A stretch of DNA of 64,000 bases from contig CAMARK010000010.1 of assembly GCA_945860205.1 (NCBI GenBank), positions 1 through 64,000 of the forward strand. The letters are read 5' to 3'. The notes under the pieces were generated by a model. That model did not search any database. It was given only the letters and a program-made list of their open reading frames with translations, and was not told where the DNA came from. The position numbers and the translations under genes were made by a program. This DNA is from Reyranella massiliensis 521 (lineage in GTDB: Bacteria > Pseudomonadota > Alphaproteobacteria > Reyranellales > Reyranellaceae). This document shows positions 29,057-35,321 of this stretch, piece after piece; position 1 is the first letter of the stretch, and every line of letters begins with the position of its first letter.

Positions 29057-29704
29057 TCACCGGCGAGGCTTGGGGGCCCTGGCCTCAGGGGTCCAAGCGT
29101 AGTTGAAACTAATCGAGATGCGCTCGCCGGAGAAGCGCGCCGGCGGCACCTCGTGACGCAGCCAGCTCTCGAACAGGACCAGGTCGCCCTCCTTCGCCGG
29201 CACACCGACGAAGGAGCGGAAGCGCTCGGGTGCGCCGCCGCGGCGGGGCGGCGCCGCCATATGGTGCGGCAGCCGCGGATCCTCGAACTTGAGCGCGCCG
29301 GCGCCCTTCGGCACGGCGGCATAGTAAGTGCCGCTGATGAACGAGGTCGGATGCAGGTGCATCGAATGCACCACGCCCGCCGGCATGACGTTTGCCCAGC
29401 AGTCGGTCATGGCCACGGCGCGTCCGCCCAGGTCGTAGTGCAGGTTGCGAGCAAAACGCTTCACGACCGGATCGATGCGGCGGCGCAGGCGGTCGAACAG
29501 CGACGAGACGAGGTGCAGGCGGTCGAGCGACCCATAGGAGGTATAGCCACCGAGATAGTGTCGCGCCGACCAGCGCCGGCCCGCCGCATCGGAGACGGCA
29601 AGGGAGCAGCATTCGTCGGCCAGACTCCGGTTGAAGGCAGGCCATCCCGGCCGGACCAGGGACTCCTGGAGGATTAATGTCGGAAAAAGGGCACGGATCG
29701 CCAT
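29057..29704 (-). CDS. Putative 2OG-Fe(II) oxygenase (TIGR02466-like)
   Basis: Cytosolic 215-residue enzyme. HSMHLHPTSFISGTYY supplies the first iron ligands, SWLRHEV the distal His, and ERISISFNY the 2-oxoglutarate-binding Arg. Overall match to the small TIGR02466-type family is good, with an opening FPTLILQES. It is the first gene of the 29704-26651 run. Its start is 45 bases from the start of the divergent PhyH-type dioxygenase, so the two non-heme iron enzymes share a promoter region. The substrate is unknown. Confidence 0.77.
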   Translation of the reverse strand: MAIRALFPTLILQESLVRPGWPAFNRSLADECCSLAVSDAAGRRWSARHYLGGYTSYGSLDRLHLVSSLFDRLRRRIDPVVKRFARNLHYDLGGRAVAMTDCWANVMPAGVVHSMHLHPTSFISGTYYAAVPKGAGALKFEDPRLPHHMAAPPRRGGAPERFRSFVGVPAKEGDLVLFESWLRHEVPPARFSGERISISFNYAWTPEARAPKPRR

Positions 29705-29748
29705 TCCGTGATTATCTGCCAACCCGGCCGCTCGTGCTATTGTTTCGC

Positions 29749-30639
29749 ATGCTTACCGCGACACAGATCGAGACCTACCACCGCGACGGCTACCTGGTCA
29801 TCCCACGCCTCATCGAGGGCGACCAGCTTGCCGAATTGCGGGCACTGACCGACCGCATCGTCGCCGAGGCGCGTGGCGTGGCGGCCAACGACGAGCTCTA
29901 CGATCTCGAACCCAGCCACAACGCCACGCTGCCCCGGGTGCGGCGGCTAAAACCCACAATCTTCAAGCGATACAAATTCTTCCACGATCTCGTGCGCGAT
30001 CCCAAGATCACGGCCATTCTCACGCAGCTGATCGGCCCGGCAATTCGACACTATGGCGGCAAGCTCAACATGAAGTCGGCGGGTTATGGCTCGCCGGTGG
30101 AATGGCACCAGGACTGGGCTTTCTATCCGCACACCAACGACGACGTGCTGGCCACCGGCATCTATCTCGACGACTGCGATCTCGGCAATGGACCGCTGCT
30201 GGTGCTGCCCGGGACACATCACGGCCCGACCTACAGCCATCATGCCGACGGCCGGTTCTGCGGCGCCATGGACCCCGAATCCTGCGACCTCGACGTCAGC
30301 AAGGCGGTACCCCTGATGGGCCCGGCTGGCTCGATGACCATCCATCACGCCCGATTGGTGCACGGCTCGGCGCTCAACACCTCCAACCAGCAGCGCCGGC
30401 TGCTGCTGCATGAATACACGGCGTCGGACGCCTGGCCGTTGATGGGCATCGCCGACTTCGACGAATTCAACAGCCGCATGGTGCTGGGCGAGCCCAATGT
30501 TGAGCCCCGCGTTCGCGCCGCGCCTGTCCGCATGCCGCTGCCCGCGGCTGATCATCAGGGGTCGATCTACGAGAACCAACGTGCCGCCGGCCGGCGCTTC
30601 TTCGAGACCCATGAGGAGCGCGCCGGTGTTGCCAACTAA
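29749..30639 (+). CDS. Phytanoyl-CoA dioxygenase family protein
   Basis: A 296-residue Fe(II)/2-oxoglutarate dioxygenase. The facial triad is readable: WHQDWAF (H and D) and VHGSALN (distal His). The Arg that binds 2-oxoglutarate is probably in QQRRLLL. It begins MLTATQIETYHRDGY, typical of PhyH. Start ATG at 29749. The frame is open for 24 codons upstream, overlapping the divergent gene's start. PhyH-type enzymes hydroxylate acyl-CoAs, phosphonates or small natural products. The specific substrate is unknown. Confidence 0.85.
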   Translation: MLTATQIETYHRDGYLVIPRLIEGDQLAELRALTDRIVAEARGVAANDELYDLEPSHNATLPRVRRLKPTIFKRYKFFHDLVRDPKITAILTQLIGPAIRHYGGKLNMKSAGYGSPVEWHQDWAFYPHTNDDVLATGIYLDDCDLGNGPLLVLPGTHHGPTYSHHADGRFCGAMDPESCDLDVSKAVPLMGPAGSMTIHHARLVHGSALNTSNQQRRLLLHEYTASDAWPLMGIADFDEFNSRMVLGEPNVEPRVRAAPVRMPLPAADHQGSIYENQRAAGRRFFETHEERAGVAN

Positions 30640-30667: not shown

Positions 30668-31204
30668 TTGCTTCCGACCTATCACGCCGCCGCCAAGGTA
30701 CTGCACTGGCTCACCGCTTTGGCGGTCTTCGGCCTGCTGGGCATCGGCCTGTGGATGACCGGCCTGCCGATTGGCCTGCAGAAGCTCCAAGTCTACAACT
30801 GGCACAAATGGATCGGCCTTGTCGTGCTGACTCTGACGGCGGCCCGCTTGTTGTGGCGATGGCGGCATCCACCGCCTCCGCTGCCCGATACGGTCACGCG
30901 CTGGGAGCGCGCGCTCGCGCCGATCGGCCATTGGGCGCTGCTGTTCCTCCTGCTCGCCATGCCGGCCAGCGGCTGGCTGATGAGTTCGGCCGGGGGTGTC
31001 AGCGTCTCGTGGTTCGGGGTTCTGCCTCTGCCCAACCCGGTGTCGCCCGATCGCGATCTTTTCGAGACGCTGCGCTCCATGCACTTCGTGCTGTCGCGGT
31101 GCCTGATCGCGGTCGTGGCGCTGCACATCGTCGCCGTGTTTCACCATGATGTCCTGCGCCGCGACGGAATTTTCCGCCGCATGTGGCCTTTGGGGAGAAA
31201 TTGA
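30668..31204 (+). CDS. Cytochrome b561-family protein
   Basis: A 178-residue inner-membrane di-heme b protein with four membrane helices (about 11-31, 44-60, 84-104 and 137-157). Histidines sit where heme b ligands are expected: H6/H13 in the first helix region, H46 in YNWHKWIG, and H139/H153 in the last helices. Such proteins move electrons between the quinone pool and periplasmic acceptors. The TTG start at 30668 fits the family opening YHAAAKVLHW. It overlaps the yceI-like gene by ATGA, so the two are coupled. Confidence 0.85.
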   Translation: MLPTYHAAAKVLHWLTALAVFGLLGIGLWMTGLPIGLQKLQVYNWHKWIGLVVLTLTAARLLWRWRHPPPPLPDTVTRWERALAPIGHWALLFLLLAMPASGWLMSSAGGVSVSWFGVLPLPNPVSPDRDLFETLRSMHFVLSRCLIAVVALHIVAVFHHDVLRRDGIFRRMWPLGRN

Positions 31205-31800
31205 TGCGCCGTTGGCTGATCGTCGCCGCCTTGCTGCTGGCACCGTCCGGACTAGCCGCGCCTGCCTTGGCTGGGCCCCAGGATGCGTGGACAATCGATC
31301 CGCGCGCCAGTTCGCTCACCTTCAGCGCCACCCAGACCGGCGCCTTCGTCAACGGGCGTTTCCCGGCCTGGAGCGGCAACATTGTGCTCGATCCCGCGGC
31401 GCTCGCCGGCGCGCGCATCGATATCGCCATCCAGATGGCGCCGATGACCGCCGGCAATCAGGATGTCGACTCCCTGATGAAGGGTGCGAACTTCCTCGAC
31501 ATCCGGAAGTTTCCCGAAGCGCGCTTCGTCGCCAGCACCGTCGTCGCATCGGGCGGCGACCGCTACGAAGCCCGCGGCAAGCTCACGCTCCGCGATGTCA
31601 CGCGCGATGTCGTACTGCCCTTCACCCTGGCCATCGTCGACAATCCCGCGCAGCCCGGTGCGGTGCGCGCCACGGCCCGCGGCAAGTTGATCATCAAACG
31701 CCTCGACTACGGCGTCGGACAGAACGAATGGGCCGGAACGGGCCAGGTCGCTAACGAGGTCACGATCGACCTCAATATCGTGGCGAGCCGCCCCAGGTGA
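31204..31800 (+). CDS. YceI-family periplasmic lipid-binding protein
   Basis: A 198-residue exported lipocalin-like beta barrel with a signal peptide (about 1-23, ending ALA-GP). Family marks are WTIDPRASSLTFSATQ at the start, MKGANFLDIRKFPEARF in the middle and GKLTLRDVTRDVVLPFTL. YceI proteins bind isoprenoid quinones or fatty amides in a hydrophobic tunnel. Pairing with cytochrome b561 is a recurrent arrangement and suggests quinone-linked electron transfer. It overlaps both neighbours by four bases (ATGA and GTGA). Confidence 0.88.
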   Translation: MRRWLIVAALLLAPSGLAAPALAGPQDAWTIDPRASSLTFSATQTGAFVNGRFPAWSGNIVLDPAALAGARIDIAIQMAPMTAGNQDVDSLMKGANFLDIRKFPEARFVASTVVASGGDRYEARGKLTLRDVTRDVVLPFTLAIVDNPAQPGAVRATARGKLIIKRLDYGVGQNEWAGTGQVANEVTIDLNIVASRPR

Positions 31801-32354
31801 TCGGCCGCCGGCGCGCCATGGGTGCCGCTGGCGCGTCGTTGCTGCTCGCGCCAGCCGCGCGCGCCCAGTACCCGCAGTGGCCGGACTGGCTCGGCAATTA
31901 TTCCGGTGCGCTGCGCTTCTATCGTTCGATCCCGCTCGAGGACATCTTCCCGCCGCCCAAAAATCCCCACGTCGACCTCGACGACCGCGCGCCATTCGGA
32001 GCCCAGTTCACCATCAGCGCCGCAGAAGACGTCGGCACGATCTGGCTGCGCATCGACGGCGGGCCGATGCAGACCTCGAGGAACGGCGAAACGCTGCGCT
32101 TCGGCGCCCTGATCGACGGCGTTGCCCTGCTCTCCTCGGCCGACGCGAAGCCTCTGCCGCGCTCCGCCACGCTGACGGTGCGGCCCGATTACTTCGGTAC
32201 CGAGGCGCTGTTCGTCCATGCCGACGGCACCTTTTGGCGACGCCACTTCACCGCCCGCTTCACGCCGGGCGGCGCCGACATGATCGTCTGGGTGTTCGAC
32301 GCCGCCGGCACGCGCGCGCGAACCTGGCGCGGCTCGGCCGTCCGCCGGAGCTAG
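31797..32354 (+). CDS. Tat-exported protein of unknown function
   Basis: A 185-residue protein starting with GTG at 31797, inside the yceI stop (GTGA). Leader IGRRRAMGAAGASLLLAPAA has an RRR motif and a cleavable AxA end, so it is probably a Tat substrate. The mature part is beta-rich with IPLEDIFPP, DLDDRAPFGAQFTIS and WLRIDGGPM. I see no cofactor motif and do not recognise the family. Its position makes it the third member of the cytochrome b561-YceI unit. Its 3' end overlaps the citrate synthase gene's end by four bases. Confidence 0.6.
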   Translation: MIGRRRAMGAAGASLLLAPAARAQYPQWPDWLGNYSGALRFYRSIPLEDIFPPPKNPHVDLDDRAPFGAQFTISAAEDVGTIWLRIDGGPMQTSRNGETLRFGALIDGVALLSSADAKPLPRSATLTVRPDYFGTEALFVHADGTFWRRHFTARFTPGGADMIVWVFDAAGTRARTWRGSAVRRS

Positions 32355-33433
32355 GGGCGCGGCCCGACGTAGTTCGACTGCGGGCGGATGATGCGGCCGC
32401 CCTTCTCCTGCTCGAAAATGTGCGCGCACCAGCCCGCCGCGCGGCCGACCGCGAATAACGCAGTGAAGGCGCTGCGCGGGATCTCGAGGGCCTCCAGCAG
32501 AAGCGCCGTATAGTACTCGACGTTGGTGTCGAGCCGCCGACCCGGCTTGTGCCGGCGCAGCGCCGCGATGGCGCTCTTCTCGACCTCGACGGCAAAAGCG
32601 AGCCGGCCCGCCGTTTGCGGCAAGGTCGCGACGGTGTTCTTGAGCACATCGGCACGCGGATCGCGCACCTTGTAGATGCGATGGCCGAACCCCATCAGGG
32701 TCGTGCCCTTGGAGAAGGCGTCGTCGAACCACGCGCCGGCCCAGTCGAGCGAGCCGATGTCGTCGAACATGTCGAGCACGGGACCGGGCGCGCCGCCGTG
32801 CAGCGGGCCTTTCAGGGCGCAAAGTCCCGCCAGCACCGAGGAGATGAGGCCGGCATGCGTTGAAGCCACGACGCGTGCCGTGAAGGTCGAGGCATTGAAG
32901 CCGTGATCGGTGATGGTGGTGAGATAGGCGTCGAGCGCCTGCTCGAATGCGGCGGGCGCTCGCTGGCCACGGATCATGCGCAGCAGGTCCTGCGCCGTCG
33001 TGAGCGTGGGATCCGGCGCCAGCGCCGACTTGCCCTCCGAGGTCCGCAGGAGTGCCGCGAGGAACACCGGCAGCGCACCGCAGACCAGATAGTGGTGCGG
33101 CATCGGCTCGGAGTCAGCCAGCATGCCGAGCCCGACACGCAGCCCTTCGACCGGCGTCAGGCCTTTGGCCGCCTGCAGCAGCTTCGGCAGTTCGGCAAAG
33201 GCCCGCACACGGGCCAGGGCGAAGCCTTCGCGGACCGCCGGCTCGTCGCCGCCGCCTTGCGCGAAACCGTCCCACAGCAGAGCCGCCACCCCTTCGAAGC
33301 CGCGGGTGGCGACCAGTTCCTCGATGGCATGGCCGCGCACGATCAGCCGGCCGGCCTCCCCATCGACTTCGCTCATCACCGTGTCGGCCACGATGATGCC
33401 GTCGAGGCCGCTGTTCACCCGTGTCTGCAGCAT
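32351..33433 (-). CDS. Citrate synthase family enzyme
   Basis: A 360-residue citrate/methylcitrate synthase-type protein. Condensation-site residues: H212 in GPLHGGA, H251 in GFGHRIY with RDPRAD following, and at the third position E306 in NVEYYT, where most citrate synthases have Asp (NVDFY). The lid region and GWCAHIFEQ are conserved. It would condense acetyl-CoA or propionyl-CoA with oxaloacetate. The start is the ATG at 33433. It is divergent from an HTH-fused citrate synthase, with 85 bases between, and is the likely target of that regulator-enzyme. Confidence 0.85.
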   Translation of the reverse strand: MLQTRVNSGLDGIIVADTVMSEVDGEAGRLIVRGHAIEELVATRGFEGVAALLWDGFAQGGGDEPAVREGFALARVRAFAELPKLLQAAKGLTPVEGLRVGLGMLADSEPMPHHYLVCGALPVFLAALLRTSEGKSALAPDPTLTTAQDLLRMIRGQRAPAAFEQALDAYLTTITDHGFNASTFTARVVASTHAGLISSVLAGLCALKGPLHGGAPGPVLDMFDDIGSLDWAGAWFDDAFSKGTTLMGFGHRIYKVRDPRADVLKNTVATLPQTAGRLAFAVEVEKSAIAALRRHKPGRRLDTNVEYYTALLLEALEIPRSAFTALFAVGRAAGWCAHIFEQEKGGRIIRPQSNYVGPRP

Positions 33434-33482
33434 CTGTTTCCCCTTCGTTTGCGTCGCTTGGAAGGTCGATCTGCACAAATAT

Positions 33483-33513
33483 ATTGTCAATCTTGATTAT
33501 ATTGATCAATATA
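33483..33513. promoter_or_regulatory. Palindromic operator-like sites between two citrate synthase genes
   Basis: TATATTGATCAATATA at 33498-33513 is a perfect 16-bp palindrome. ATTGTCAAT at 33483-33491 is a second dyad sharing the ATTG/CAAT arms. The 85-base intergenic region is strikingly AT-rich in a GC-rich chromosome. The palindrome ends five bases before the ATG of the HTH-citrate synthase, which has no Shine-Dalgarno sequence. This fits an autoregulated operator. Confidence 0.6.
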
Positions 33514-33518
33514 TAACT

Positions 33519-34736
33519 ATGACCCTTGAATTATTGACGTCCTGGGAAGCGGCACGGCGGCTGGGCGTGTCGGCCGCCACGCTCTACGCCTATGTCAGTC
33601 GCGGCCTGCTGCGCTCGGAGGCGGTCGACGGCAGCCGCGAGCGGCGCTACCGCGCCGACGACGTCGTGCGCCTAAAACGCCGCCGCGATGTCGGCCGCAA
33701 GGCCGAGTCGATCGCCAACCACGCGCTGGACTTCGGCACGCCGGTGCTCGAGTCGGCCCTGACGTTGATCGAGGGCGGCCGTCTCTATTATCGCGGCATC
33801 GACGCCGCCCGACTGGCAGAGACGGCCTCGCTGGAAGATGTCGCCCGGCTCCTATGGGACTGCGACGACAAGCCCTTCGCTGCGAGCAACCTGCCCCCGC
33901 TCACCACCGCCTTGCGCCGCGCCTGGATCGCCGCGGCTACCCTGTCGCCACCCGACCGCTGCCTCGTGCTGCTGCCGGCCGCCGCGGCACTCGATCATCC
34001 GAGCTGGGTGGAAGATCGCGCCGCCATGCTGGAGACCGGCGTACGCGTGCTGCGTTTGCTGACGGCGGCGGTGACGGCGCGCCCACTCTCCACCTTGCCC
34101 GTTCACGAACAGCTCGCGGTGGCGTGGCGCGTGCCGCCCGATCGCGTGCCAATGCTGCGGGCCGTGCTGGTGCTCCTGGCCGACCATGAGTTCAATGCCT
34201 CGGCTTTCGCCGCGCGGGTCGTCGCCTCCACCGGCGCCAATCTCTACGGCGCCACCATGGCGGGGCTGGCGGCGCTCAACGGTCCACGTCACGGCGGGGC
34301 CACGCGGCGGGTCGCGGCGATGTTCGACGATCTCAAGAACACCACCGACCTCGACGCCGACCTCGGGCGGATGCTGCGCGCCCGCGTCTACATCCCGGGA
34401 TTCGGCCACCAGCTCTATCCCGACGGCGATATCCGGGCGGCAACTTTGATGACCCTGCTGCGCAAGACCCTACCGGACTCGCCGGAACTGACGTTCGCCG
34501 AGCGCCTGTCGGCGGCGGTCGAGCGCCTGATCGACCGTAAGGCCAATGTCGATTTCGCCAGTGTGACTGTCGAACGCGTGCTCGGCCTGCCCAAGGATTC
34601 GGCGCTGGCGCTGTTCCTGCTCGGCCGCACCGTCGGCTGGATCGCCCATTCCCTGGAACAGGCGAACGGCGCATTGATTCGGCCGCGCGCGCGCTATACA
34701 GGACCGCGACCCGGAGCCCCACGACCCGAAGCCTGA
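33519..34736 (+). CDS. Citrate synthase fused to an N-terminal MerR-type HTH
   Basis: A 405-residue fusion. Residues about 6-55 form a MerR-like helix-turn-helix (LTSWEAARRLGVSAATLYAY, then RYRADDVVRLKRRRD). Residues 65-400 form a citrate synthase with H258 in GPRHGGA, H297 in GFGHQLYPDGD and D345 in NVDFAS, so the catalytic set looks intact. Known in databases as an HTH-containing citrate synthase family, but without an assigned role to my knowledge. The likely reading is an enzyme, or former enzyme, that senses acetyl-CoA or oxaloacetate and binds the upstream palindrome. Its start lacks a ribosome site, so it may be leaderless. Confidence 0.85.
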   Translation: MTLELLTSWEAARRLGVSAATLYAYVSRGLLRSEAVDGSRERRYRADDVVRLKRRRDVGRKAESIANHALDFGTPVLESALTLIEGGRLYYRGIDAARLAETASLEDVARLLWDCDDKPFAASNLPPLTTALRRAWIAAATLSPPDRCLVLLPAAAALDHPSWVEDRAAMLETGVRVLRLLTAAVTARPLSTLPVHEQLAVAWRVPPDRVPMLRAVLVLLADHEFNASAFAARVVASTGANLYGATMAGLAALNGPRHGGATRRVAAMFDDLKNTTDLDADLGRMLRARVYIPGFGHQLYPDGDIRAATLMTLLRKTLPDSPELTFAERLSAAVERLIDRKANVDFASVTVERVLGLPKDSALALFLLGRTVGWIAHSLEQANGALIRPRARYTGPRPGAPRPEA

Positions 34737-34748
34737 GGCCTCGCGCCC

Positions 34749-35321
34749 ATGACCCATGCCCTGATCGTCATCGACATGCAGCAAGGTTCGTTCGGCGAGG
34801 CCGCGCCGCGGCACGACTCCGTCGCGCTCGTTGGTCGGCTGAACGAACTGGCCGGCGCGGTGCGGACCAACGGTGGTGCCGTCGTCTTCATCCAGCACGA
34901 TGGCCCCGCGGGCGATCCCCACCAGCCGGATCTGCCGGGCTGGCGGCTGCTGGCCGACCTCGATGTGCATCAGGACGACACCATCATCCGCAAGACGTCG
35001 TGCGATGCCTTCCTCGACACGACGCTCGACGCGTTCCTGCGCTCCCGCGCCATCGAATGCCTGGTCATCACCGGGTGCGCCACCGACTACTGCGTCGACA
35101 CCACGGTCCGAAGCGCGCTGGCGCGCGGCTATCCGACGGTCGTGCCCTCGGACGGCCACACGGCGGCGAACCGGCCCCACCTGACGGCTGCAAAGATCAT
35201 CGAGCATCACAATGCGATCTGGGCCGACTTCATCGCGCCCGGCGGACCGGCGGTGGTCTGTCCCAGCTCGGACGTTATCCACCAAATCGGCGTCTTGCGG
35301 GACCGGCACCTGCGTGCTTAA
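34749..35321 (+). CDS. Isochorismatase-family cysteine hydrolase
   Basis: Cytosolic 190-residue enzyme. The catalytic triad is in place: Asp in LIVIDMQQG (D9), Lys in IIRKTS (about 82) and Cys in GCATDYCVD (about 116). The cis-peptide region ITGCATD is conserved. Members hydrolyse isochorismate, nicotinamide or ureido/carbamoyl groups. The start ATG is 12 bases after the HTH-citrate synthase stop, so it may be in the same transcript, and pyrB follows 12 bases later. Its substrate is unknown. Confidence 0.83.
   Translation: MTHALIVIDMQQGSFGEAAPRHDSVALVGRLNELAGAVRTNGGAVVFIQHDGPAGDPHQPDLPGWRLLADLDVHQDDTIIRKTSCDAFLDTTLDAFLRSRAIECLVITGCATDYCVDTTVRSALARGYPTVVPSDGHTAANRPHLTAAKIIEHHNAIWADFIAPGGPAVVCPSSDVIHQIGVLRDRHLRA

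Follow-up and report, generated by a model that had tools for sequence, protein, structure and literature searches.

A putative transcription factor built on a citrate synthase fold, and its predicted operator, in Reyranella massiliensis and other bacteria

Why would a citrate synthase carry a DNA-binding domain? Citrate synthase stands at the entry to the Krebs cycle, and the question arises in a 64,000-nucleotide stretch of the Reyranella massiliensis 521 genome (contig CAMARK010000010.1, positions 1 to 64,000; hereafter the window), where two genes of the citrate synthase family point away from each other across 85 bases (33434-33518; 63.5% AT, rising to 80% AT in the final 45 bases). One encodes a helix-turn-helix (HTH) domain fused to a citrate synthase body (HTH-CS), the other a citrate synthase without such a domain (the partner). 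The pair does not supply the main enzyme of the Krebs cycle, as a third, canonical citrate synthase (C119) is encoded elsewhere in the genome. We argue that HTH-CS is quite probably a dedicated transcription factor on a citrate synthase fold, which would control both itself and the divergent, minor citrate synthase. The features of the locus are collected in Table 1.

Aligned gaps share one element, RTCAATMTTGAT-N7-ATCAAYA, whose copy in the window (33486-33511) reads GTCAATCTTGATTATATTGATCAATA. At its core lies TTGAT-N7-ATCAA, an inverted repeat of 17 bp that extends to ATMTTGAT-N7-ATCAATAT. Most of 113 dereplicated sites hold this 5-N7-5 geometry; the TCAA and TTGA letters are 99-100% conserved in them and the right arm ATCAA 94-98%, with flanks at about 0 bits. 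When the 200-bp upstream regions of 152 HTH-CS loci were scored for the element (maximum 19), 140 reached a best score of at least 15, as opposed to 5 of 3040 first-order (dinucleotide) shuffles. The element is conserved far beyond chance. In Duganella, the sites alter both arms symmetrically (TTGAC-N7-GTCAA), and where half-sites are TTGAC, residue 25 in the HTH helix is N or S and not Y. This covariation of helix and operator supports a direct readout of the site by the protein, though mainly from a single clade.

The initial annotation of the window had proposed comparing homologous loci for a dyad between the genes, naming its absence as the outcome that would count against regulation; what emerged is the opposite, a conserved dyad. 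It had also pointed to two symmetrical sequences in the gap. The smaller, at 33483-33491, is present (ATTGTCAAT). The larger, a 16-bp palindrome, is indeed perfect in the window, but we rejected it as the operator because just 7 of 34 Reyranella loci have it as a perfect palindrome. It is a local accident, arising where the seven middle bases happen to be TATATTG.

How specific is the element to this gene family? We scanned whole genomes with the sequence pattern alone, using the reversed pattern as a control. The exact pattern gave 17 matches in 372 alphaproteobacterial genomes, 16 of them immediately upstream of an HTH-CS gene. A somewhat wider pattern gave 31 matches in 397 genomes from across the phylum, one per genome; 30 lie directly upstream of HTH-CS, and the last (locus L246) heads an operon that ends in HTH-CS 2.9 kb further on. 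Neither scan returned more than one match per genome, and the reversed pattern matched nothing in either. Counting once the two genomes common to both scans, 45 of 46 distinct matches are in loci encoding HTH-CS. The one exact match with no HTH-CS gene in the stretch read (L137; G150:C21:13947) belongs to a small AT-rich genome and is probably due to chance. In the window's own 5-Mb genome, the 26-base site occurs once even when three mismatches are allowed. We also considered a genome-wide regulon and dropped it: there is no second full site within three mismatches in this genome, and looser half-patterns give many matches without any signal.

Close homologues of HTH-CS are present in 35 of 37 Reyranella genomes and in 45 of 386 alphaproteobacterial genomes. 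The protein is found in Caulobacter, Phenylobacterium, Hyphomonas, Rhizobium, Mesorhizobium, Bosea and Methylobacterium, as well as in Variovorax, Duganella, Caballeronia, Herbaspirillum and Pandoraea, and is plasmid-borne in Agrobacterium fabrum C58, Azospirillum, Roseomonas, Comamonas and a Deinococcus. By a similarity test, the neighbour is a divergent citrate synthase of CitA type in at least 62 of 89 named loci, a family III coenzyme A (CoA) transferase in 9 and a DUF2332 protein in 1; other neighbours include major facilitator superfamily (MFS) transporters, DinB proteins and, in the locus from Deinococcus, an HMGL-like enzyme. The element is retained opposite CoA transferase, DUF2332 or HMGL-like genes and in Deinococcus, and also in L038, where the upstream gene has the same orientation and there is no divergent partner. 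In Burkholderia arboris and Paraburkholderia hospita, two copies lie between a 2-hydroxyacid dehydrogenase gene and a divergent operon encoding, in the order read in B. arboris, a short-chain dehydrogenase/reductase, an MFS transporter, a glyoxalase-like protein and finally HTH-CS, whose start is 2.9 kb from the element. By these comparisons, the element tracks HTH-CS rather than citrate synthase; kept with other neighbours and heading operons that contain HTH-CS, it would be neither a mere promoter core nor citrate synthase-specific. We think it fairly likely that HTH-CS proteins, Caulobacter CitC (see below) among them, are widespread one-component regulators with a citrate-synthase-fold sensor, occurring in Alphaproteobacteria, Burkholderiales and sporadically elsewhere. 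Such regulators would read oxo-acids or acyl-CoA through the old active site, controlling a minor citrate synthase or genes for small acids and CoA.

Several of these loci deserve a separate remark. The Burkholderia and Paraburkholderia arrangement was seen in L115 (facing copies at 1092 and 1261), L120 and L250, and is possibly an organic-acid catabolic locus under HTH-CS control. In L116, a DUF2332 gene (PF10094; 2837-3904) replaces citrate synthase opposite HTH-CS with the element kept, and similar-looking genes occur in L096, L100 and L101, which suggests that DUF2332 works in organic-acid or CoA metabolism. In L017 (G032), an additional stretch of sequence separates the two genes and widens the gap to 764 bp; the operator copy beside the citrate synthase gene is nearly complete and the one beside HTH-CS degraded, which would fit a duplication of the site or its disruption by an insertion.

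The protein itself has the two parts that such a role would call on. The reading of the initial annotation holds: HTH-CS joins a MerR-type HTH (MerR_1, PF13411, residues 10-54; 34.8 bits against a Pfam cut-off of 21.6) to a citrate synthase body (Citrate_synt, PF00285, residues 73-390; 221.6 bits), in a divergent pair across a short AT-rich gap, and its catalytic H258, H297 and D345 are intact, being 96-99% conserved among 77 homologues. Four further residues (H223, R306, R370 and R388), which we take to be those holding oxaloacetate by correspondence with the pig and E. coli enzymes, are invariant in HTH-CS. An AlphaFold2 model built from 54 sequences (mean predicted local distance difference test score 90.3) has a helix at residues 46-57, a low-confidence linker at 62-74 and then the citrate synthase fold, which resembles solved citrate synthases (Foldseek E 2e-16). 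The top folds for the isolated HTH are the DNA complexes of SoxR, NmlR, BldC and GlnR; the best E-value is a weak 5e-3, as expected for a domain of only 60 residues. The coiled-coil dimerisation helix and small C-terminal sensor of classical MerR proteins are absent from the model, and domain searches gave no GntR-type HTH or aminotransferase match. Phylogenetically, HTH-CS forms a single clade (support 100/100), deeply divided from the partner citrate synthases (98/99).

The partner has Citrate_synt as its sole Pfam domain (304 bits) and PDB entry 2c6x, 'citrate synthase 1', as its best PDB match. In all 34 partner citrate synthases, the catalytic aspartate is replaced by glutamate (NVE for NVD), as it also is in 2c6x and in Mycobacterium tuberculosis CitA. 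To connect the pair with published work, we compared loci from C. segnis, C. radicis and Caulobacter sp. Root655, standing in for C. crescentus NA1000; these congeners carry both the pair and the operator (L146, L157, L194). The C. segnis partner is 29.9% identical to E. coli GltA and 37.6% to 2c6x, and the fusion 33.7% (locally) to GltA. Because these values agree with those published for CitB (30%, 37%) and CitC (33%) (PMC7083601), the pair very probably corresponds to C. crescentus citB/citC (CCNA_03757/CCNA_03758). According to that study (Berge et al., 2020), CitB supports the growth of an E. coli gltA mutant and CitC does not, and it is CitA, rather than CitB or CitC, that controls the Caulobacter cell cycle. 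Its text mentions neither an HTH in CitC nor a regulatory role for it. In PMC11475020, the CCNA_03757 promoter serves only as a negative control for IscR.

Since CitB and not CitC replaces GltA, the partner works despite its glutamate, and in that test the fusion, for all its intact triad, did not. A dedicated sensor is accordingly the better reading of a protein that keeps the triad and fails to complement. The initial annotation had pictured a metabolic enzyme that also regulates: the regulator has gained support from the conserved dyad, while a simultaneous working enzyme has so far not, given the failed complementation by CitC.

The strongest competitor to a dedicated regulator is a trigger enzyme, in which HTH-CS would be a fully active citrate synthase or related acyl-CoA synthase that also acts as repressor or activator at its operator, alternating between catalysis and DNA binding much as PutA does. 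The three catalytic and four oxaloacetate-site residues are conserved in 96-100% of homologues, the aspartate being kept where the partner has glutamate, and the GHP-LYP loop of HTH-CS resembles the GHP-VYT of PrpC. However, 45 of 49 HTH-CS proteins have proline in place of the basic residue that follows GH-x-x-Y in the Y-K/R loop, the divergent partner often supplies a citrate synthase already, and there is the result with CitC. We regard this alternative as rather unlikely overall, although a trigger enzyme with a different substrate is possible.

A second possibility is that another regulator binds the element and controls both genes, with the HTH of HTH-CS serving some other purpose. This would account for HTH-CS loci that have no element, but exact sites occur almost only with HTH-CS, including at the head of the operon 2.9 kb ahead of the gene and on the Deinococcus plasmid, and we consider it quite improbable.

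Several observations nevertheless weigh against a dedicated regulator. HTH-CS occurs without the element in L094, L106, L140, L141, L164 and L211, as well as in L148 and L218; the first six are from a Caulobacterales lineage in which HTH-CS is divergent from a cation-efflux-type transporter, and the recognition helix is unchanged in those of their proteins that were read. The covariation of helix and operator is mostly confined to one clade. The correlation between the pairwise distances of HTH-CS and those of its partner (r 0.83), which counts in favour of the regulator, partly mirrors the species history common to both. Conservation of the catalytic triad at 96-99% would fit an active enzyme as well. 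Finally, the passages of PMC7083601 examined describe no phenotype peculiar to the loss of citC.

In Reyranella, the dyad lies within a 20-bp spacer between TTGTCA (34/34 loci) and a TA-rich hexamer near the HTH-CS start codon, a spacing that may represent a MerR-like long spacer holding the dyad and facing the HTH-CS gene. We dropped this arrangement as a universal feature: among the 113 sites, the upstream TTG and the -10 are unconserved outside Reyranella, and we restrict the long-spacer reading to this genus for that reason. A consensus promoter scan returned a single weak promoter at 33458-33485. The idea that what is conserved is no operator but just the core of a strong promoter seems barely credible, even with TTGTCA and TATAAT-like hexamers in all Reyranella loci, as no fixed promoter fits all families, conservation falls on the dyad and not on the -10 hexamer, and promoter cores would be expected to be common in every genome, yet the site occurs once.

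Taken together, the comparative evidence is strong that HTH-CS is a transcription factor acting locally and on its own gene, with a citrate synthase fold as its sensor, and HTH-CS very probably regulates itself and its neighbour. We propose that two MerR/GlnR-like HTH heads, dimerised through the citrate synthase body (the fold being dimeric in known citrate synthases), would bind TTGAT-N7-ATCAA in the protein's own promoter region and, from there, control both its own expression and the divergent minor citrate synthase. Autoregulation is the firmest prediction, because in Reyranella the dyad sits in a putative MerR-like spacer facing the HTH-CS gene. Control of the partner would follow from the same element lying upstream of it, although the sign cannot be read from sequence; the partner may be made when the sensed metabolite requires it. 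The citrate synthase pocket most likely acts as a small-ligand sensor, perhaps for citrate, for an acyl-CoA or for a 2-oxo acid such as oxaloacetate. Guilt by association points to an acyl-CoA or a small organic acid, since the neighbours (citrate synthase, CoA transferase, HMGL-like synthase/lyase, hydroxyacid dehydrogenase) handle such compounds; sensing of acetyl-CoA or oxaloacetate, as the initial annotation had suggested, may have the invariant oxaloacetate-site residues in its favour but the conserved proline of the Y-K/R loop against it. What the sequences and models show is a conserved architecture and operator, their linkage, the residues of the pocket and the predicted folds; physical and dimeric DNA binding, the identity of the ligand and the sign of regulation are what we infer here.

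Table 1. Features of the HTH-CS locus, in window coordinates.
Feature	Position	Strand	Remarks
HTH-CS	33519-34736	+	405 residues; MerR-type winged HTH and citrate synthase fold; proposed transcription factor; probable Caulobacter CitC type
Winged-HTH domain of HTH-CS	33531-33686	+	N-terminal, residues 5-56; recognition helix TLYAYVSRG near invariant
Citrate synthase domain of HTH-CS	33735-34688	+	Residues 73-390; H223, H258, H297, R306, D345, R370, R388 conserved
Partner citrate synthase	32351-33433	-	360 residues; CitA/PRK12350 type; probable Caulobacter CitB type; Glu replaces catalytic Asp
Predicted operator, RTCAATMTTGATN7ATCAAYA	33486-33511	+	Only match with up to 3 mismatches in the 5-Mb genome
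Left arm TTGAT of 17-bp dyad	33493-33497	+	
Right arm ATCAA of 17-bp dyad	33505-33509	+	
Candidate -35, TTGTCA	33484-33489	+	Putative HTH-CS promoter; 34/34 Reyranella loci
Candidate -10, TATATA	33510-33515	+	20 bp from the -35; putative
16-bp palindrome of the initial annotation	33498-33513		Overlaps operator; unconserved as such (7/34 congeners)
Isochorismatase-family hydrolase	34749-35321	+	Starts 12 bases downstream of HTH-CS

A homologue of the isochorismatase-family hydrolase gene also follows HTH-CS in about 14 Reyranella loci, and for this reason the gene is possibly co-transcribed with HTH-CS. Elsewhere, the window holds a frequently met pair at 30668-31800, a cytochrome b561 gene and then a YceI-family gene, with a PhyH dioxygenase gene (29677-30639) ahead of them.

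Enzyme-derived regulators are already known as a kind. In GabR/MocR proteins, an HTH is fused to an enzyme fold that has become a sensor, and the protein controls its own gene as well as a divergent metabolic operon; the principle is the same as that proposed for HTH-CS, but the HTH is of GntR type, the fold that of an aminotransferase, and the sequences are unrelated. The citA-citR locus of Bacillus subtilis, where a minor CitA-type citrate synthase is divergent from its own regulator, is like the window's pair in layout, but CitR is LysR-type and has no citrate synthase fold. Classical MerR proteins (SoxR, CueR, MtaN) share with HTH-CS a PF13411 match above the cut-off and the nearest HTH folds in the PDB, and in Reyranella the likeness may extend to a dyad in a candidate 20-bp -35/-10 spacer, which is not demonstrable outside this genus; they differ in having a coiled-coil dimerisation helix and a small sensor where HTH-CS has a whole enzyme fold as its effector module. 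GlnR and TnrA of Bacillus and Paenibacillus, also MerR-type winged HTH proteins, bind a 17-bp 5-N7-5 repeat that in GlnR reads TGTNA-N7-TNACA (PMC6191146), a likeness to TTGAT-N7-ATCAA rather than a sign of membership. They are coupled to the state of an enzyme, feedback-inhibited glutamine synthetase (PMC9249791), but there the enzyme and the DNA-binding protein are separate, whereas HTH-CS holds its citrate synthase module in one chain. We found no description of a citrate-synthase-fold regulator or of this operator in the library of non-subscription literature searched, where PMC7083601 was the only relevant paper.

If our reading is true, its predictions can be tested in laboratory strains, with a single operator per genome, its sequence already at hand, and a pocket whose ligands are known, and HTH-CS might serve as a scaffold for biosensors of acetyl-CoA or oxaloacetate. 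It would also account for Caulobacter CitC not being a working citrate synthase and give a function to many proteins annotated merely as 'citrate synthase family protein'. More broadly, a citrate synthase fold reused as a sensor would tie central-carbon status directly to transcription.

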